A stretch of 64,000 bases of DNA from Micromonospora olivasterospora (GTDB taxonomy: Bacteria; Actinomycetota; Actinomycetes; Mycobacteriales; Micromonosporaceae): positions 2,852,001 through 2,916,000 of the forward strand of contig NZ_VLKE01000001.1 of NCBI RefSeq assembly GCF_007830265.1, read 5' to 3'. A program made the position numbers and the translations under genes. The notes below the pieces were generated by a model that had not been told where the DNA came from, did not search any database, and saw only the letters and a list, made by a program, of their open reading frames with translations. The stretch's first letter is position 1, and every line of letters begins with the position of its first letter. Shown piece by piece: positions 838-8,342 of this stretch.

Positions 838-2379
838 GTGCCCCGAGGCGACGGCCGGCTGAGCCACGACCTTGACCCCCAACGACCCGGCCCGCAGGAC
901 GCGTGTGGCGTCTTCGGCGTCTGGGCGCCGGGGGAGGAGGTCGCCAACCTGACCTACTTCGGGCTCTACGCCCTCCAGCACCGTGGCCAGGAGGCCGCCG
1001 GGATCGCGGTCAGCGACGGCTCCGGCGTGGTGGTCTACAAGGATCTGGGCCTGGTCGCCCAGGTCTTCGACGAGCCCACCCTGGCCAGCCTGCGCGGGCA
1101 CGTCGCCATCGGGCACGCCCGCTACTCGACCACCGGCGCCTCGACCTGGGAGAACGCCCAGCCGACCATCAGGTCCACCAGCGCCGGCACGACCATCGCG
1201 CTGGCCCACAACGGCAACCTGGTCAACACGGCCGACCTCCAGCGCGAGGTGAGCGAGCGCGGACTGGTGGCCGACGGCGCGACCAACGACACCTCCCTGG
1301 TGACCATGCTGCTGGCCAGCCGGCCCGACCTCTCGGTCGAGGCCGCCGCGCTGGAGGTGCTGCCCCAGCTGCGCGGCGCGTTCAGCTTCGTCTTCATGGA
1401 CGAGTCGACCCTCTACGCGGCCCGCGACCCGCACGGCGTACGCCCGCTGGTGCTCGGCCGCCTGGAGCGCGGCTGGGTGGTGGCCAGCGAGACGGCCGCG
1501 CTCGACATCGTCGGCGCGAGCGTGGTCCGCGAGGTCGAGCCGGGCGAGCTGATCGCCATTGACGAGGACGGCCTGCGTTCCGCCCGGTTCGCCGCGCCGG
1601 AGCCGAAGGGCTGCCTCTTCGAGTACGTCTACATCGCCCGCCCGGACGCCACCATCGCCGGCCGCAACGTGTACGCGGCACGGGTGCAGATCGGTCGCCA
1701 GCTCGCCAAGGAGCACCCCGTGGAGGCCGACCTGGTCATCCCGGTGCCGGAGTCGGGTACGCCGGCCGCGATCGGGTACGCCGAGGAGTCCGGCATCACC
1801 TACGGCGCCGGCCTGGTGAAGAACCCGTACGTCGGCCGGACCTTCATCCAGCCGTCGCAGACCCTGCGCCAGCTCGGCATCCGGCTCAAGCTCAACCCGC
1901 TGCGGGCGAACGTCCGCGGCAAGCGGCTGGTCGTGGTCGACGACTCGATCGTGCGCGGCAACACCCAGCGTGCCATCGTCCGGATGCTGCGCGAGGCGGG
2001 TGCGCTGGAGGTGCACGTCCGGATCTCCTCCCCGCCGGTCAGCTGGCCGTGCTTCTACGGCATCGACTTCGCCACCCGCGCGGAACTGCTGGCCAACGGG
2101 CTCGACAACGACGGCATCCGCCGGTCGATCGGGGCCGACACGCTGGGCTACGTCTCGCTCTCCGGCCTGATCGCCGCGACCGAGCAGCCGAAGACCCGCC
2201 TCTGCCGGGCGTGCTTCGATGGGGAATACCCGATCCCGCTGCCGGACGGGAACCTGATCGGCAAGCACGTGCTCGAAGGAGTGGGACGCCGGATCGCCAA
2301 CGCGGCGCCGGAGGATCCCGACCGCAATGTCCCACCGCTCGTCGCCACCTCGGGCGGCGCGACCGTACACCGCCCATAG
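838..2379 (+). CDS. purF: Amidophosphoribosyltransferase
   Basis: First committed step of purine synthesis: transfers the amide nitrogen of glutamine to PRPP, giving phosphoribosylamine. 513 residues. A short propeptide ends before Cys23 (DACGVFG), the N-terminal nucleophile of the glutaminase domain, so self-cleavage is expected. The C-terminal half is a phosphoribosyltransferase with the PRPP loop VVVDDSIVRG near residues 364-376. Cys259, Cys405, Cys456 and Cys459 (CRAC) sit where the Bacillus-type enzyme binds a 4Fe-4S cluster, so this is the Fe-S class. The GTG at 838 has an AGAGGGAG ribosome site seven bases upstream; the upstream in-frame GTG at 778 has none. purM follows after 64 bp and is probably co-transcribed. 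Confidence 0.96.
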   Translation: MPRGDGRLSHDLDPQRPGPQDACGVFGVWAPGEEVANLTYFGLYALQHRGQEAAGIAVSDGSGVVVYKDLGLVAQVFDEPTLASLRGHVAIGHARYSTTGASTWENAQPTIRSTSAGTTIALAHNGNLVNTADLQREVSERGLVADGATNDTSLVTMLLASRPDLSVEAAALEVLPQLRGAFSFVFMDESTLYAARDPHGVRPLVLGRLERGWVVASETAALDIVGASVVREVEPGELIAIDEDGLRSARFAAPEPKGCLFEYVYIARPDATIAGRNVYAARVQIGRQLAKEHPVEADLVIPVPESGTPAAIGYAEESGITYGAGLVKNPYVGRTFIQPSQTLRQLGIRLKLNPLRANVRGKRLVVVDDSIVRGNTQRAIVRMLREAGALEVHVRISSPPVSWPCFYGIDFATRAELLANGLDNDGIRRSIGADTLGYVSLSGLIAATEQPKTRLCRACFDGEYPIPLPDGNLIGKHVLEGVGRRIANAAPEDPDRNVPPLVATSGGATVHRP

Positions 2380-2443
2380 CACCGCCCGACGCGGTTACGG
2401 CCGGCCACCACCGGCGCCCGCGAGAACCACAAAGGGGAGAACC

Positions 2444-3598
2444 GTGACGCACGTGTCCGAGCGCAGCGGCACCGGAAGCAGCCCGACCGGCACCGGCGGC
2501 GACCGCCAGCCCTGGACGGCCGGGTCCGGCCGCCCCGCGCGCAAACGCTCGGTCTCGTACGCCGAGGCCGGCGTCTCGATCGAGGCGGGCGACCGCGCGG
2601 TCGAGCTGCTGAAGTCCAAGGTGCGGCAGACCAGGCGGCCGGAGGTCCTGGGCGACCTCGGCGGGTTCGCGGGCCTGTTCCGGCTCGACACCGCGAAGTA
2701 CCGCAACCCGATCCTGGCGTCCTCGACGGACGGGGTCGGCACCAAGCTGGTGATCGCCCAGCAGCTCGACATCCACGACACGATCGGCATCGACCTGGTC
2801 GCCATGGTCGTCGACGACCTGGTCGCCTGCGGTGCCGAGCCGCTGTTCCTGCTCGACTACATCGCCTGCGGCGAGGTCGTTCCCGACAAGGTCGCCGAGA
2901 TCGGCGCCGGCATCGCCGACGGCTGCCGGTACGCCGGCTGCGCGTTGCTCGGTGGCGAGACGGCCGAGCACCCGGGCGTGCTGCGCCCGGACGAGTACGA
3001 CGTCTCGGCCACCGGCGTCGGCGTGGTGGAGGAGAGCGAGATCCTGGGCCCGGAGCGGGTCGAGGTCGGCGACGTGGTGATCGCCATGCGCTCTTCCGGC
3101 CTGCACTCCAACGGCTACTCGCTGGTCCGGCACGTGCTGCTCGGCGCGGGCCGGATGCGGCTGGACGTGGTGATCGAGGACTTCGGCCGGCAGCGCACCC
3201 TCGGCGAGGAGCTGCTGACGCCGACGAAGATCTACGCGCAGGACTGCCTCAAGCTGATCGCCGAGGCGGAGGTGCGGGCGATCGCCCACGTCACCGGCGG
3301 CGGCATCCCGGGCAACCTGGTCCGGGTCCTGCCGGAGCACGTCGACGCCGTGGTCAACCGGTCCACCTGGAAGCCCCAGCCGGTCTTCGACCTGATCCAG
3401 TCCAAGGGCCGGATCGAGGACGCGGAGATGGAGTCCACGTTCAACATGGGCGTCGGCATGTTCGCCGTCGTCTCGGCCGAGGACGCCGACCGGGCCCTGG
3501 CCACGCTGACCGGGCGGGGCGTCGACGCCTGGCAGGCCGGCGAGATCATCGAGGGCACCGGCAAGGTGCAGATGGTCGGGCAGCACACCCGGGGATGA
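2444..3598 (+). CDS. purM: Phosphoribosylformylglycinamidine cyclo-ligase (AIR synthetase)
   Basis: Closes the imidazole ring in purine synthesis, converting FGAM to AIR with ATP. The 384-residue translation has the PurM signatures SYAEAGVSIEAGD, LASSTDGVGTKL, GMVVDDLVA-like and LLGGETAEHPG. An N-terminal Ser/Gly/Thr-rich extension of about 33 residues precedes the conserved core, which is common in actinomycetes. The GTG at 2444 follows an AAAGGGGAGA ribosome site. It lies 64 bp after purF and ends inside a perfect inverted repeat that probably terminates the pur transcript. Confidence 0.96.
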   Translation: MTHVSERSGTGSSPTGTGGDRQPWTAGSGRPARKRSVSYAEAGVSIEAGDRAVELLKSKVRQTRRPEVLGDLGGFAGLFRLDTAKYRNPILASSTDGVGTKLVIAQQLDIHDTIGIDLVAMVVDDLVACGAEPLFLLDYIACGEVVPDKVAEIGAGIADGCRYAGCALLGGETAEHPGVLRPDEYDVSATGVGVVEESEILGPERVEVGDVVIAMRSSGLHSNGYSLVRHVLLGAGRMRLDVVIEDFGRQRTLGEELLTPTKIYAQDCLKLIAEAEVRAIAHVTGGGIPGNLVRVLPEHVDAVVNRSTWKPQPVFDLIQSKGRIEDAEMESTFNMGVGMFAVVSAEDADRALATLTGRGVDAWQAGEIIEGTGKVQMVGQHTRG

Positions 3599-3618
3599 TC
3601 ACGCTGCGCTGATCATCC
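3593..3618 (+). terminator. Hairpin overlapping the purM stop
   Basis: Perfect 9-bp inverted repeat GGATGATCA / TGATCATCC with an 8-base loop; the purM TGA lies in the left arm. No U-run follows, as is usual in high-GC actinomycetes. It could instead be an operator for the downstream radical-SAM unit. Confidence 0.5.
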
Positions 3619-3661
3619 GGGCACCTGATCGGGGGTTCACCCGAGTGGCCATCGCCGCCTA

Positions 3662-3682
3662 GCCTGAAGGGCGCCTTCAGGC
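3662..3682 (+). promoter_or_regulatory. Hairpin/operator-like repeat before the radical-SAM gene
   Basis: Perfect 9-bp inverted repeat GCCTGAAGG / CCTTCAGGC with a GCG loop. It ends two bases before the strong ribosome site (GGAAGGAGG, about 3685-3693) of the radical-SAM gene. It could be a repressor operator or a 5' leader hairpin affecting translation of the RiPP genes. No regulator gene is adjacent. The role is inferred from position only. Confidence 0.4.
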
Positions 3683-3696
3683 CAGGAAGGAGGGCG

Positions 3697-4830
3697 ATGG
3701 CTGCTCGGGAACGGTCGGTCGGCGGGATGCGCGGCATCGCGGCGGTCCCGTCGTACGTCGTCATGCAGCCAACCACGCTGTGTAACCTCGACTGCGCGTA
3801 CTGCTATCTGCCGCTGCGGGCCGTCGACCGGCGGATGCCCGTGGCGGTGGCCGAGGCGGTGGCCGCCTCGGTGAACCCGTGGGCGGCGGCCGGGCGGTTC
3901 TCGGTGGTCTGGCACGGCGGGGAGCCCCTGGCAGCCGGCCGGGAGCACCTGGCGGCCCTGCTCGCCCCGTTCCATCCCGGGGTCGAGCACCACGTGCAGA
4001 CCAACGCCACCCTGGTCGACGACGCCTGGTGCGAGTTCTTCGCGACGCACCGGATGCGGGTCAGCGTCAGCGTGGACGGCCCGCGCAGGCGCAACGACGA
4101 GCGGGTCACGCGGGCGGGCCGGCCGGCGTACGACCGGATCGTGCGCGGCGTGGCCGCGCTGCGCCGGCACGGGCTGCCGTTCTCGGCGCTGGCCGTGGTG
4201 AACGACCCGACGCCGGGGCGGGCCACCGAACTGTACGACTACTTCCTCGGCCTCGGCTGCGACGTGCTGGGCGTCAACATCGAGGAGACGGAGGGCGTCA
4301 ACACCCGCGGCAACGCCCACGAGGCGGCGGCGGTGCGGGCGTTCTGGGCCGAGCTGGTGGCCGCCTGGCGGCGGGCGCCCCGCATCCACCTGCGCGAGGT
4401 GGAGTGGTCGCTGCGGTACGTCGGGGCGGTCCTCGACGGCACGGCGGACGACCTGTTGCCCCGGCGGCTCGATCCGATCCCCACGGTCGGCCACGACGGG
4501 TCGGTGACCGTGCTCTCGCCCGAACTGGCCGGCTTCACCGACCCCCAGTACGGGGACTTCAGCAGCGGTAACGTCCTGACCACCCCGCTGGCGGAGATCC
4601 TCGCCGGTGCGGCGGGGACGCCCTGGGTGGGCGAGTTCCTGGCGGGCGTCGAGGCGTGCCGGGCGTCCTGCCCGTACTTCGGCTTCTGCGGGGGCGGTCA
4701 CGCCGCCAACCGTTACTTCGAGCTGGGGCGTTTCGACAGTACGGAGACCGACCACTGCCGCAACAGCAAGATCCGCCTACTGGAGGGAGTGTTGGACCAT
4801 GCCCGAGACCACCGGACACCGGCCGTCTGA
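3697..4830 (+). CDS. Cyclophane-forming radical SAM/SPASM peptide maturase
   Basis: A 377-residue radical SAM enzyme predicted to crosslink side chains of the peptide encoded immediately downstream. CNLDCAYC at residues 29-36 is the CxxxCxxC motif for the SAM-binding 4Fe-4S cluster. HGGEPL and VQTNATLVD are typical peptide-maturase segments. A C-terminal SPASM-type cysteine cluster starts at Cys321 (CRASC, then FGFCGGGHAANRY, ending TDHC) for auxiliary Fe-S clusters. The family resembles the GrrM/AmcB-like maturases that form three-residue aromatic cyclophanes. The start ATG has a GGAAGGAGGG ribosome site. The gene overlaps the precursor start by 32 bp, so the two are translationally coupled. 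It interrupts an otherwise conserved purM to bldC gene order, which suggests insertion. Confidence 0.85.
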   Translation: MAARERSVGGMRGIAAVPSYVVMQPTTLCNLDCAYCYLPLRAVDRRMPVAVAEAVAASVNPWAAAGRFSVVWHGGEPLAAGREHLAALLAPFHPGVEHHVQTNATLVDDAWCEFFATHRMRVSVSVDGPRRRNDERVTRAGRPAYDRIVRGVAALRRHGLPFSALAVVNDPTPGRATELYDYFLGLGCDVLGVNIEETEGVNTRGNAHEAAAVRAFWAELVAAWRRAPRIHLREVEWSLRYVGAVLDGTADDLLPRRLDPIPTVGHDGSVTVLSPELAGFTDPQYGDFSSGNVLTTPLAEILAGAAGTPWVGEFLAGVEACRASCPYFGFCGGGHAANRYFELGRFDSTETDHCRNSKIRLLEGVLDHARDHRTPAV

Positions 4831-5035
4831 GCGCGCCGGGGCAGCCGTCGTCGACCGGGTTGCCGAGCGGGTGCGGGAGGGCGCCGCGGGGCTCACCGCG
4901 CTGCTCCGCGAGGCGGAGGACGCGCGCCGGCTGCGGGCGGAGGTGGCGGTAGGCGAGGGCACCAGTGCGGTCTGCGCCTGGAACCACTTCGAGAACATCC
5001 CGACGTTCTACAACTGGAACAACCGCCCCCGTTGA
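4799..5035 (+). CDS. Cyclophane RiPP precursor peptide
   Basis: A 78-residue precursor. Residues 1-55 form a charged, helical leader rich in Ala, Arg and Glu. The C-terminus is a core rich in aromatics and Asn: AWNHFENIPT followed by FYNWNNRPR. The core contains four aromatic-x-(Asn/His) triplets: W61-H63, F64-N66, F70-N72 and W73-N75. This is the motif that three-residue cyclophane-forming radical SAM enzymes crosslink between the aromatic ring and the beta-carbon of the third residue. A GGAGGGAG ribosome site lies nine bases before the ATG, inside the maturase gene. No protease, transporter or second tailoring gene is adjacent, so leader removal and export must use enzymes from elsewhere. 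Crosslinks are inferred, not seen. Confidence 0.82.
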   Translation: MPETTGHRPSERAGAAVVDRVAERVREGAAGLTALLREAEDARRLRAEVAVGEGTSAVCAWNHFENIPTFYNWNNRPR

Positions 5036-5045
5036 GAAGTGCCCG

Positions 5046-5100
5046 CGATCAAGGGCCTGCCGGTGCGCCCGGAGGCTCCGGCACGGCAGGCCCCTGATCG
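5046..5100 (+). terminator. Terminator of the RiPP unit
   Basis: A 17-bp arm (5046-5062) pairs with 5084-5100 with one mismatch, leaving a 21-base loop. It begins 10 bp after the precursor stop. Confidence 0.8.
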
Positions 5101-5177
5101 TCGGTGGACACGCCGCCTCGCGATGGGCACATGCGTGAGCACGCGGGGCTCACCGCGTGCTCAGATGTGACCGGGGG

Positions 5178-5393
5178 TCAGCGGGTCGGGCGGACCCAGG
5201 GATCCGGGTCCTCGTCCGCATGATCATCGTCATCGTCGTCGACATACTCTTTGTAGTCGTCGTCGAAGTCGTGGTCCGACTTGCCAGCACCCGCCAGTTC
5301 GCGCTGCAAGGCGGTGAGGTCGGTGTTCGGGGAGTGGTACTTCAACTCCCGGGCCACCTTTGTCTGCTTGGCCTTAGCACGGCCGCGCCCCAT
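5178..5393 (-). CDS. DUF3073 family protein
   Basis: A 71-residue protein of unknown function, conserved across actinomycetes next to purM. It begins MGRGRAKAKQTKVARELKY, a basic segment that defines DUF3073. It ends in an extremely acidic tail with runs of Asp (DDDYKEYVDDDDDD), giving a strongly dipolar, probably disordered chain. The ATG at 5393 has a GAGGGGG ribosome site and gives the family N-terminus; 21 further upstream codons are open but not family-like. The gene is convergent with the RiPP unit and transcribed in the same direction as the dehydrogenase to its right. Likely cytoplasmic; role not established. Confidence 0.85.
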   Translation of the reverse strand: MGRGRAKAKQTKVARELKYHSPNTDLTALQRELAGAGKSDHDFDDDYKEYVDDDDDDHADEDPDPWVRPTR

Positions 5394-5673
5394 GGCTCGA
5401 CCCCCTCGCACAGAATGCGGGGCAGCCCGAAGGCGGGCCCCGATGACGTCAGGCATCTCTCGTGGCTCTTACGGTACATGGGGATGCCACCGTTCGGCAC
5501 CTCGGGTTACCGTCAGCCGGCACCGCGCGTCGCGGTGATCCGACCGTCACCAAGTGTACTCGGGTAAGGGGCGTACGCCGACTCGCTCGTGACGCCGGGC
5601 AAATCGGCAGGAATCTCCCCAATTTCCAGCTTAACGCGGGCGTGCCATCCGGTTTCACCGGCTCGCCGTTCCG

Positions 5674-5697
5674 GGGGGCGGGAACGCTCCCGCCCCC
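5674..5697 (-). terminator. Terminator of the dehydrogenase gene
   Basis: Perfect 10-bp stem (GGGGGCGGGA / TCCCGCCCCC) with a 4-base loop, 12 bases past the dehydrogenase stop on the minus strand. The rest of 5394-5708 holds no gene and should carry the promoter of the DUF3073 gene; I see no clear -35/-10 pair. Confidence 0.75.
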
Positions 5698-5708
5698 GGA
5701 CGTGAGGC

Positions 5709-6791
5709 TCACCGCAGATGGATCGTGCGCAGCCGGCCGACCTCGGCCATCCGGCGCTCGGCGAGCCGGTCCGCGGCCGCCGCCGGCGGCACACCCTCCT
5801 CGTCGGCCAGCCGCAGGATGTCCCGGGTGGTGTCATAGATCTTCGTGGCGCGCAGCTTCGCCCGCTCGAAGTTGAAGCCATCGATCTCGTCGGCGACCTG
5901 GATCACGCCGCCGGCGTTAACCAGATAGTCGGGGACGTAGAGGATGCCCCGGTCGGCGAGGACCTTCTCGATGCCCGGGTGGGCGAGCTGGTTGTTGGCC
6001 GCCCCGGCGATCACCTTGGCCCGCAGCGCCGCCACCGTGTCGTCGTCGAGGGCGCCGCCCAGCGCGCAGGGAGCGTACACGTCGATGTCGGAGGCGACCA
6101 GGGCGGCGGTGTCGTCGACCAGCTCGACCTGCGGGTGGGTGGCGCGCACCCAGGCGAGGGCCTTCGGGCTGACGTCGGTCGCCACGACCTCGGCGCCGTC
6201 GTCGATCAGGTGACTGGTCAGGTGCTTGCCGACCTTGCCCAGGCCGGCCACACCGACCCTGCGGCCCTTCAGGCTCGGCGCGCCCCACACGCGCTCCGCG
6301 GCGGCCCGCATGCCCTGGAAGACGCCCCAGGCGGTGAGGATCGACGAGTCACCCGCGCCCCCGTGCTCCACACTGCGACCGGTGACGAACCGGGTCTCCC
6401 GCGCGATCACGTCCATGTCCGCCACGTACGTGCCGACGTCGCAGGCGGTGTAGTAGCGGCCGTTCAGCGACTCGACGAAGCGGCCGTACGCGCGCAGCAG
6501 GGGCTCGCTCTTGATCTGTTCCGGGTCGCCCCAGATGACCGCCTTGCCGCCGCCGTGGTCGAGCCCGGCCAGGGCGTTCTTGTAGGCCATGCCGCGGGAC
6601 AGGTCCAGCACGTCGGCGAGCGCCGCCTCCTCGCTGGCGTACGGATAGAAGCGGGTGCCGCCGAGGGCGGGGCCCAGCGCGGTGGAGTAGATCCCGATGA
6701 TCGCCTTGAGTCCGGTTTGCTTGTCCTGGCAGAACACGACCTGTTCGTGACCGGTGGACAACGGGTCGTCGGTGCTGGCGAATACGCCCAT
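5709..6791 (-). CDS. vdh: Glu/Leu/Phe/Val dehydrogenase (probable valine dehydrogenase)
   Basis: NAD-dependent oxidative deamination of a branched-chain amino acid to its 2-keto acid, supplying acyl-CoA precursors. 360 residues, normal for leucine/valine dehydrogenases. [13 protein letters not shown] contains Lys71 and the catalytic Lys83. The Rossmann motif GVAGLGKVG lies in the C-terminal domain, and the late NNQLAHP and DYLVNAGGV segments are family hallmarks. The ATG at 6791 has a CAGGAG ribosome site; upstream codons are not conserved. In Streptomyces the gene at this position beside bldC is vdh, so valine is the best guess, but leucine or phenylalanine cannot be excluded from sequence alone. 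Confidence 0.88.
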
Positions 6792-7008
6792 GGCTGGCTC
6801 CTGTATCGGTGGGCATCCTTGTGGGACGCGGCCCTGGTGGCGCGCCGGCGGGATGTTGCCGGTGCTGCCGAGCCTAGTATCGGCCGACACCGTACTGCCG
6901 CTGGCGGGTGCGGGCACAAGGGCTACCCGGGGTGCCTGAGCAGGCATGCCAGCCGTGTTCCGGGGGCGCTGCGGGCGTCCGGGTTCCGTCTCGTGGGAGG
7001 ATCGCGCC

Positions 7009-7848
7009 GTGCCGTCGCTCTTCGCTTCGTATCTGCGCATGTACGAGCCGCTGACCGCCTTCGACCGGGAACGCCAGTCGTTCTGGCGGCGCTACGCCCA
7101 GGAGGGCCGAGCCGTCGCCCCCTCCGAGGGGCCGGTGCGGCAGCGTACGGTCGTTATCGAGGCGCTCGGCGCGGGTTGGACCCGGCTGCCCGACCTGCCC
7201 GACGAGGCGTACGTCCTGGAGACCGACGACACCCTGCTGGTCTGCCCGTGGAACCTGCGGGTCCGGGTGGCGGAGGCGGCGCTCAGCGCCCGGGACGGCG
7301 TGCCGCCGGTGCTGGCCGACGCGTTCGTGCCCCCGGTGCTGGCCGGGCAGGCCAAGGCGGTCGTGGAGGACTGGCGCAGCGGGGCGCGGGTGCTCGAACA
7401 CGGCGTCCCCCGGGTGCACGAGCAGATCGCGACGTGGGGCGTGCCGCTGCGCTGGTTCGTGCTGTTCGAGCCGGCGGAGCGGCACTTCGTCACCGAGCCG
7501 GGCCGGCGGGCCCTGCGTTACCGGACGGAGATCTCGCGGGCCCGTCGCCGCTCCTCCCGCGCGCTGTCGGTGCTGCGCAAGACCGTCGGCGAGGCGCCGA
7601 TCACCGAGGCGGTCGAGGAGGCCGCCCGATGGCTGGAGGAGTTCCACCCCCGCTCTGTCGTGGAGTTGGACTACGGCGGGCTGGTCCAGTTGCTCTCCGA
7701 CGAGACGCTGGAGGCCGACGACTCCCCGGCGCTCGTGGCACGAGGTCTGGCCGGGCTCTCCAACGGGGAGACCGAGGCGGCCTCGGCGGCGTACGACAAG
7801 CTCGTGGCACGGTGGCGGGCCGTTCAGCTGCTGGAGCGTTGGAACTAG
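7009..7848 (+). CDS. Conserved hypothetical protein between vdh and bldC
   Basis: A 279-residue protein that I recognise only by position, as the equivalent of the Streptomyces gene between vdh and bldC (SCO4090-type). It has no signal peptide and no membrane segment. It is rich in Arg, Glu and Trp. Segments such as [19 protein letters not shown] at the N-terminus and [17 protein letters not shown] strands suggest a soluble globular fold. The GTG at 7009 follows GGGAGGA. No catalytic motif is evident. Function unknown; strict synteny with bldC hints at a housekeeping or developmental role. Confidence 0.75.
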
Positions 7849-8132
7849 CCCTGACCTGGGTACGGAGTTCCCAAGGGGTTGAAAACCACCCATGGGAAGG
7901 CTCCCAACCCGAGGGGTGCTCGTAGTTTACGCATCACGAACCGTGATCATGAGTCCTGATAAGACACTTTCTGAGGCGTATTAGTCGTATAAATCGGGCA
8001 TGGTTCATCCGTCCGTCTAGGGACCTTCGGCCGTTCGGCCCATGTCGGACATCGGGGACTAGCCGGACCATGGGAGACGCGTCGGCCGGCGGGACCCCGG
8101 CCGATGTCTATACCTGTGGAGGAGTGACCGAT
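7849..8132 (+). promoter_or_regulatory. Upstream region of bldC
   Basis: 284 bp without a gene. It contains the least GC-rich stretch nearby (about 7920-8000, including TAGTTTACGCATC and CGTATTAGTCGTATAAATC), a plausible place for the bldC promoter. I cannot assign a specific sigma factor motif. Confidence 0.4.
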
Positions 8133-8342
8133 ATGGCATCGCGAACGCACGAACCGGAGCCGCTGCTCACACCGGCCGAGGTGGCGTCGATGTTCCGTGT
8201 CGACCCGAAGACGGTGACCCGGTGGGCCAAGGCCGGCAAGCTCAGCGCCATCCGCACCCTGGGGGGCCACCGTCGTTACCGCGAGTCGGAGGTTCGGGCC
8301 CTGCTGCAGGGGCAGATCCCGCAGCAGCGCCAGGGAGACTGA
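8133..8342 (+). CDS. bldC: BldC developmental transcriptional regulator
   Basis: A 69-residue MerR-like winged-helix DNA-binding protein without an effector domain. In Streptomyces BldC is a DNA-coating regulator that delays the switch from vegetative growth to sporulation. The sequence is almost that of the known protein: LLTPAEVASMFRVDP is the first helix pair, followed by KTVTRWAKAGKL (recognition helix), then the wing IRTLGGHRRYRE. The ATG at 8133 follows a GGAGGAGTGA ribosome site; in-frame codons before it are not conserved. It is monocistronic, bounded downstream by a strong hairpin. Confidence 0.96.
   Translation: MASRTHEPEPLLTPAEVASMFRVDPKTVTRWAKAGKLSAIRTLGGHRRYRESEVRALLQGQIPQQRQGD

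Follow-up and report, generated by a model that had tools for sequence, protein, structure and literature searches.

Comparative evidence for vertical descent of an AmcA/AmcB peptide locus with a near-frozen core beside purM

Introduction

Ribosomally synthesized and post-translationally modified peptides (RiPPs) are commonly regarded as weapons with a patchy distribution and rapid change. What, then, is to be made of a two-gene RiPP unit that stands in the same place, with nearly the same core peptide, in genome after genome of an actinomycete family? The unit in question, amcB–amcA, lies in Micromonospora olivasterospora within a 64,000-nucleotide stretch of contig NZ_VLKE01000001.1 (positions 2,852,001 to 2,916,000; hereafter the window, in whose coordinates all positions are given). 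It comprises a gene for a radical S-adenosylmethionine (SAM)/SPASM enzyme and a short gene for the peptide that this enzyme is predicted to modify. The explanation that we favour, and consider fairly likely, is that AmcA and AmcB form a vertically inherited triceptide system whose housekeeping-like product has a constant partner in the producer.

Identity of the locus

The features on which the argument depends are the following.

3697–4830, plus strand: amcB, cyclophane-forming radical SAM/SPASM peptide maturase of 377 residues (NF041718, PF04055)
4799–5035, plus strand: amcA, 78-residue precursor peptide of type 3a (NF041722)
4799–4966, plus strand: leader, residues 1–56, variable, with a conserved L..LL.EAE.AR..RaE stretch
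4967–5032, plus strand: core AVCAWNHFENIPTFYNWNNRPR, residues 57–78, with triplets W61–H63, F64–N66, F70–N72 and W73–N75

The two open reading frames share 32 nucleotides, an overlap already described in an initial annotation of this DNA. That annotation had also proposed a maturase and precursor of the three-residue-cyclophane kind, and comparison with curated RiPP families supports the proposal. In an NCBIfam profile search AmcB scores 524.9 bits against NF041718 (cut-off 425; model positions 1–361 of 362), and it matches the Radical_SAM family PF04055. Its CX3CX2C motif (C29, C33, C36) is kept in 168 of 168 homologues, as are C112, C325 and C331; C321 and C354, which together with C325 and C331 we take to be the SPASM set, are kept in 167 of the 168. 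AmcA exceeds the cut-off of NF041722 (AmcA_3a) with 115.2 bits against 65, over the full length of the model (1–58 of 58). A search of a protein collection returned 1048 relatives of AmcA at E ≤ 0.01; among the best 120 of these, many are named at source "multiple cyclophane-containing RiPP AmcA", and all 120 carry PF28164. AmcA itself had no match in the copy of Pfam searched, of which PF28164 is not part. The UniRef names of three relatives (P0014, P0050 and P0070) begin with "Acyl-CoA carboxylase", an apparent mis-annotation.

Judged by these family matches, the locus is an already catalogued AmcA/AmcB system and, at family level, one more member. The novelty once claimed for the His of the first triplet and for the two-gene make-up does not hold, because both are traits of the curated AmcA_3a/AmcB family already named in NCBIfam; WNH-FEN occurs in 132 of 145 distinct cores. 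Searches of the literature (open-licence papers) found no description of the AMC peptides, of their shared synteny or of the frozen core. The frozen core and the synteny, not the family membership, seem worth the attention of specialists.

Conservation of the core peptide

AmcA ends in ...SAVCAWNHFENIPTFYNWNNRPR, where all four aromatic-x-(Asn/His) triplets noticed earlier are present: W61-x-H63, F64-x-N66, F70-x-N72 and W73-x-N75. Cys59, which had been passed over, is found in 132 of 132 WNH-type cores, as is H63, the search pattern for such cores already containing Cys59. The core AVCAWNHFENIPTFYNWNNRPR is identical to the letter in 118 of 145 distinct precursors; 10 others carry Y71F, 4 are altered at the C-terminus, and the remainder belong to type 3b (11) or to a third type (2). 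Within 128 type 3a sequences, 20 of the 22 core positions are invariant, 7 of the 22 being fixed by the choice of these sequences through the string AVCAWNH. Over the 45 residues preceding the core in the same 128 sequences, the mean pairwise identity of the leader is 0.49, as read from stop-to-stop frames in which, for the shortest precursors, a few of the residues precede the start; within the L..LL.EAE.AR..RaE stretch, individual L, A, R and E residues are invariant. On this comparison the type 3a core is near-frozen while the leader drifts.

For reference we used neighbouring genes, to which the labels purF, ValDH, u300 and BldC were given in this analysis and presumably apply: ValDH from a match to ELFV dehydrogenases, BldC from an HTH_17/MerR-type match, and purF, as a tentative label, from its sequence. 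The synonymous codon variety of the core (0.212) is at the level of matched invariant columns of AmcB, purM and ValDH (0.218; P 0.41), and therefore the constraint would act on the peptide. Constraint at the nucleotide level, through RNA or an overlapping frame, was considered as the cause of the frozen core and rejected, there being no mean deficit of codon variety. Single codons deviate: Ala60 is low (0.04 of reference columns are as low), and Arg76 and Pro77 are high. The best 22-residue window reaches 17 positions at ≥99% identity in AmcB, 18 in ValDH and 20 in purM (3 of 362 windows).

Several observations weigh against the favoured explanation. Part of its invariance was built in by the choice of AVCAWNH, and without that selection other cores appear in 13 of the 145 precursors. 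DUF3073, encoded next to the unit, likewise reaches 20 of 22 positions at ≥99% identity (5 of 50 windows), and the conservation of BldC exceeds that of the core (44 of 44 windows). In three AmcB-bearing genomes (G182, G202 and G240) AmcA is matched by neither model. A core frozen across the whole family was in fact considered and rejected once further genera had been sampled: 24 of their genomes gave 11 cores of type 3b, 6 of type 3a and 2 of the third type, and 5 genomes had no match to either model. Counted by genus code, type 3a occurs in 24 of the 44 sampled genera of the family, type 3b in 8 and the third type in 1.

Where AmcB is more than 60% identical and enough downstream sequence is available, 144 of 145 distinct loci have a recognisable core behind it, the recognition patterns being derived from cores already observed. 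The downstream frame, on whose conservation beside the maturase the initial annotation had staked its reading, is thus kept; the sole coreless locus (L203) is a contig-edge artefact, and the core of the same genome is present in L259. Since both frames also lie far above their NCBIfam cut-offs, the pairing is above chance. At three further loci (L123, L252 and L254) no precursor was recognised. The length of the leader compared with the core might be taken to favour a small frame that encodes a short accessory protein and no precursor, AmcB acting elsewhere; a C-terminus frozen while the leader drifts, the cores found behind AmcB and the match of both proteins to paired NCBIfam models make that explanation most improbable.

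Core types and the number of rings

The initial annotation allowed for up to four cyclophanes in the core. Comparison of core types (spaced by hand, as was the alignment of the third type) bears on this number. Against the type 3a pattern WNH-FEN-I-PT-FYN-WNN stand the 3b and third-type cores WRP-FED-A-FPT-FYQ-FTN, PRP-FED-A-FPT-FYQ-FSN, WRA-FSD-A-FPT-FWE-FSN, WRA-FED-S-FPT-FYE-FTN and WTD-V-FTT-Q-FTE-FSN. Three triplets out of the four retain the form aromatic-x-(N/D/Q/E) in all 13 non-3a cores, with exchanges of N for D, among N, Q and E, and of W for F. At W61-x-H63 the other core types have W-x-P, W-x-A or P-x-P. Because the i,i+2 pattern is kept at three triplets and lost at this one, three rings (F64–N66, F70–N72 and W73–N75) are comparatively supported over four, and the fourth, at W61–H63, appears doubtful; the earlier estimate of up to four is not supported beyond three of its triplets.

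AmcA_3b (NF041723) occupies the same chromosomal spot as type 3a, and its AmcB is 68–71% identical where no contig end cuts the gene. It keeps F-x-D, F-x-(Q/E) and F-x-N in the manner of 3a, and differs in having WRP, WRA or PRP for WNH, an extra F-P-T and no Cys59. The discrete types 3a, 3b and third share one locus, with no intermediates observed (L257–L267, L272 and L273 versus L059–L138). On the tree described below, the states 3a, 3b, third and none take 5 changes; the core has therefore been replaced a few times, a point against our favoured explanation.

The residues Cys59, His63 and Asn, held on a rigid multicyclic scaffold, could serve redox chemistry or bind a metal, and the product would then be comparable to pyrroloquinoline quinone (PQQ), mycofactocin or bulbicupramide. 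This would be a narrower form of our favoured explanation, and the conservation of the core is a presumed likeness to redox-cofactor RiPPs of the PQQ and mycofactocin kind. It is encouraged by the fact that each of the 132 WNH-type cores has C59 and H63, and by the precedent of a genus-wide, obligate RiPP in Microbulbifer that is a copper chelator (PMC12538549). Neither Cys nor His is present in the 11 type 3b cores or in the 2 of the third type, so that these ligands are dispensable at least there, and no partner enzyme was identified. We regard the proposal in this narrow form as rather doubtful.

Distribution and descent

The unit is placed between two conserved genes.

2327–3598, plus strand: purM (TIGR00878, 440 bits, cut-off 236), longest open reading frame taken
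5178–5399, minus strand: gene for a DUF3073 protein (PF11273, 85.9 bits, cut-off 25)

The purM stop lies at 3598; the true start is probably further in than 2327. Among the neighbours tested between 3697 and 8339 of the window no protease, exporter or immunity gene was found, in agreement, for the first two, with the initial annotation.

One AmcB exceeds the cut-off in the genome of M. olivasterospora itself, and AmcB does so in 151 of 151 genomes of the genus, a sample drawn from a larger group. In the family it was found in 158 of 200 genomes, and in 35 of 44 genera at E 1e-60; this count takes in any type of AmcB, including that of genus g41, for which the single locus retrieved belongs to the sister system discussed below. 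One apparent absence (G192) is a contig-edge effect, at L203. A sample of the order yielded AmcB in 71 of 397 genomes, 68 belonging to the same family and 3 to family f88, and a sample of the phylum in 2 of 396, both of the same genus. At least 63 named loci come from genera such as Micromonospora, Salinispora, Plantactinospora, Actinoplanes, Asanoa, Catellatospora and Dactylosporangium.

Comparison of the purM–DUF3073 interval, which the initial annotation had recommended, shows the syntenic unit kept across loci of the family. With "near" taken as midpoints within 3.2 kb, AmcB has both purM and DUF3073 near it in 53 of 61 primary loci, in 58 of the 63 named loci listed and in 9 of 16 further loci, three sets that overlap in species and in which some contigs end nearby. 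One of the two genes is still near AmcB in every remaining locus. The exceptions are explained by moved purF–purM parts, inverted DUF3073–BldC parts, contig ends and one wide gap; the gene order at L138 is the same, with a gap wider than the limit. Counted by genus code, a fetched locus of this syntenic kind is available from 32 of the 44 sampled genera.

Two outgroup genomes of the same class (G338 and G443; loci L248 and L249) have the order purF–purM–DUF3073–ValDH–u300–BldC with no insert. The insertion proposed earlier is borne out in so far as the interval was opened relative to this order. It does not appear to be a local event: the comparison points to one old gain inherited by the family. 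In a tree of ValDH and u300 with 67 rows, from which loci without ValDH were left out and in which 19 loci of Micromonospora were reduced to 6, the genomes with syntenic AmcAB form one clade (support 100/96) that requires one change. Addition of 13 rows, to make 80, leaves the single change in place with support 96. Of the nine genera without AmcB, eight are represented in the trees, all outside the AmcAB clade; the ninth, g14, is unplaced because its locus lacks ValDH. Distances between AmcB sequences track those between ValDH sequences (Mantel r 0.79, equalled by 0 of 999 permutations, 110 loci). From the single clade and this correlation, AmcAB at purM/DUF3073 is taken to represent one gain followed by vertical descent, with no loss seen among the genomes examined. 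Two points weigh on the other side: the tree program warned of long branches that meet at L236, and 21 family genomes with no match lie outside the tree reading, save that several more of genus g11 were covered in the order sample. A recent horizontal insertion in this strain was also considered, and was rejected on the occurrence of AmcB throughout the genus sample and the single change on the tree.

Other contents were also seen in the same interval. In one genome of genus g12, which lacks AmcAB, it holds an ATP-grasp peptide maturase (L234:7687–8996; TIGR04187, 402 bits, cut-off 350), preceded by an 87-residue frame with a sub-threshold match to ATP-grasp RiPP precursors (19.6, cut-off 25), that is, a different RiPP in the same gap. 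In genus g40, adjacent to the AmcAB clade on the tree, it holds an acetyltransferase-like frame (L230:5380–5895 and L245:6273–6788); the L230 frame belongs to the amino-acid N-acetyltransferases (NF005921, 277 bits, cut-off 180), and that of L245 is alike by eye.

Promoter and terminator

Two further features bracket the unit.

3636–3667, plus strand: putative promoter TTCACC-N18-TAGCCT(GA), upstream of amcB
5044–5101, plus strand: strong 3′ hairpin, probable U-less terminator (z −4.55)

TTCACC-N18-TAGCCT occurs in 61 of 127 distinct upstream regions and in 0 of 127 on the reverse complement; TAGCCTG alone occurs in 88 and 10, respectively. These counts take in relatives and are not independent, and other genera carry other sequences. 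In the genome of M. olivasterospora an exact match to the extended pattern occurs once, at this locus, and a copy at 3 mismatches once, where a backward control gave 2; a wider regulon sharing the amcB promoter was accordingly rejected, no second exact copy being present. A perfect 9-bp inverted repeat, GCCTGAAGG / CCTTCAGGC, with a loop of 3 nucleotides (3662–3682), overlaps the putative −10 element and stops before the ribosome site of amcB; it forms a weak hairpin (z −1.47) and is kept only partly in relatives, as judged by eye.

Hairpins had been claimed on both sides of the unit, and the one at the 3′ side stands. The region 5033–5110 folds at −48.6 kcal/mol, with z −4.55 relative to shuffled sequences. 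It has no T run, and a scan for U-tract terminators finds none there, so that the hairpin is a probable U-less terminator. The 90 nucleotides downstream of amcA have a median of −46 kcal/mol in 128 sequences, by folding energy alone. The 5′ hairpin (3585–3640) is no better than shuffled sequences (z −1.08; 23 of 200 as good).

Proposed mechanism and role

In the scheme that we propose, amcB–amcA would be transcribed from its own promoter, and AmcB would recognise the leader of AmcA. By way of its SAM cluster and its SPASM clusters, the enzyme would then bond a ring carbon of the aromatic residue i to the β-carbon of residue i+2. The outcome would be about three C–C cyclophanes (F64–N66, F70–N72 and W73–N75), with W61–H63 as a possible fourth. 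An unlinked protease would free the core, and the product would meet an unchanging partner within the producer or on its surface, in the manner of a cofactor, metal ligand or signal.

A constant role in the producer is favoured by the universality of the unit in the genus, its vertical descent, the fixed core and the want of an exporter, protease or immunity gene among the neighbours tested. A near-identical 22-residue peptide encoded at the same spot in over half of the sampled genera of the family suggests an everyday job in the producer rather than a disposable antibiotic. On the other side, neither a target nor a regulon was found, nor a protease or exporter among the neighbours at 3697–8339, and the frozen core could also fit a fixed external target. 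If the proposal is correct, AmcA yields a natural product that has a housekeeping role and acts on an unchanging target. The constraint on its core is similar to that on the most conserved stretch of purM, and it is central to a large, drug-relevant actinomycete family.

Comparison with known systems

The closest enzymes outside the AmcB family are the GrrM/OscB maturases. Their model (TIGR04261) is the second best for AmcB, at 238.4 bits and below its cut-off of 310, so that AmcB is a relative and no member; it is likewise below the curated cut-offs for XyeB, FxsB and YhhB. GrrM/OscB and other triceptide maturases are also radical SAM/SPASM enzymes that link an aromatic ring to Cβ at i,i+2; the links made by OscB, XncB and MscB run from Trp C7/C6 or Phe C4 to Cβ of Asn, Asp, Arg or Ser (PMC11002830). 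The bulbicupramide cluster of Microbulbifer shares with AmcAB the obligate retention of a RiPP through a genus, and differs in that it belongs to other organisms and that its product chelates copper (PMC12538549).

The most instructive comparison is with the sister AmcA_1 system (NF041721). It shares an AmcB-type maturase and a core of several triplets, of the kind ...FDNRPTWDN...WDNWNKKK, with the locus in the window. It differs in its AmcB, which is 40–46% identical to that of the window, and in its position, which is not at purM. Of three sister-type precursors tested against NF041721, two exceed the cut-off and one is below it. A pentapeptide-repeat protein is encoded in the flanks of 36 of 37 distinct sister loci and of 0 of 146 primary-locus entries, counted from 32% identity to the query upward at E ≤ 1e-5, with primary entries not deduplicated and flanks of differing length. 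In the cases read, the gene (PF13599/PF00805; for example L127:7334–7993 and L119:7335–7994) lies directly behind the precursor. At two loci of family f88 (L253 and L256), outside the family, WDN-type precursors are also near a pentapeptide-repeat match, on the opposite strand. Pentapeptide-repeat proteins shield gyrase, and the protein of the sister loci resembles MfpA, Qnr and McbG-like chains in sequence. It is a candidate immunity protein that would protect the producer from a peptide aimed at gyrase, a hint that the role of the sister system differs and may be linked to gyrase.

This neighbour lends some weight to the idea that AmcA_3a is itself a secreted antibacterial triceptide, its core frozen by a universal target and its export and immunity encoded elsewhere. 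Darobactin and dynobactin, related radical SAM peptides, are described as antibiotics (PMC9055067, PMC11002830). No repeat protein was found near the primary loci within the flanks compared, AmcB is universal in the genus sample, and a single gain with no loss seen is the pattern inferred for the unit. Antibiotic clusters usually show patchy turnover, unlike AmcAB. On this evidence an antibacterial AmcA_3a is unlikely.

Returning to the producer-directed role that we favour, one may extend it tentatively to both systems: AmcA_3a would be a lineage-defining housekeeping triceptide, resembling a cofactor, metal ligand or signal, while AmcA_1 with its repeat protein became a gyrase-directed weapon. 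We offer this as possible rather than probable. If it is true, the two or three discrete core types found at one locus would amount to different settings of a single signal or ligand system. AmcA_3a and AmcA_1, the latter with its adjoining candidate immunity protein, would then present a contrast of domestic and weapon roles within a single family.

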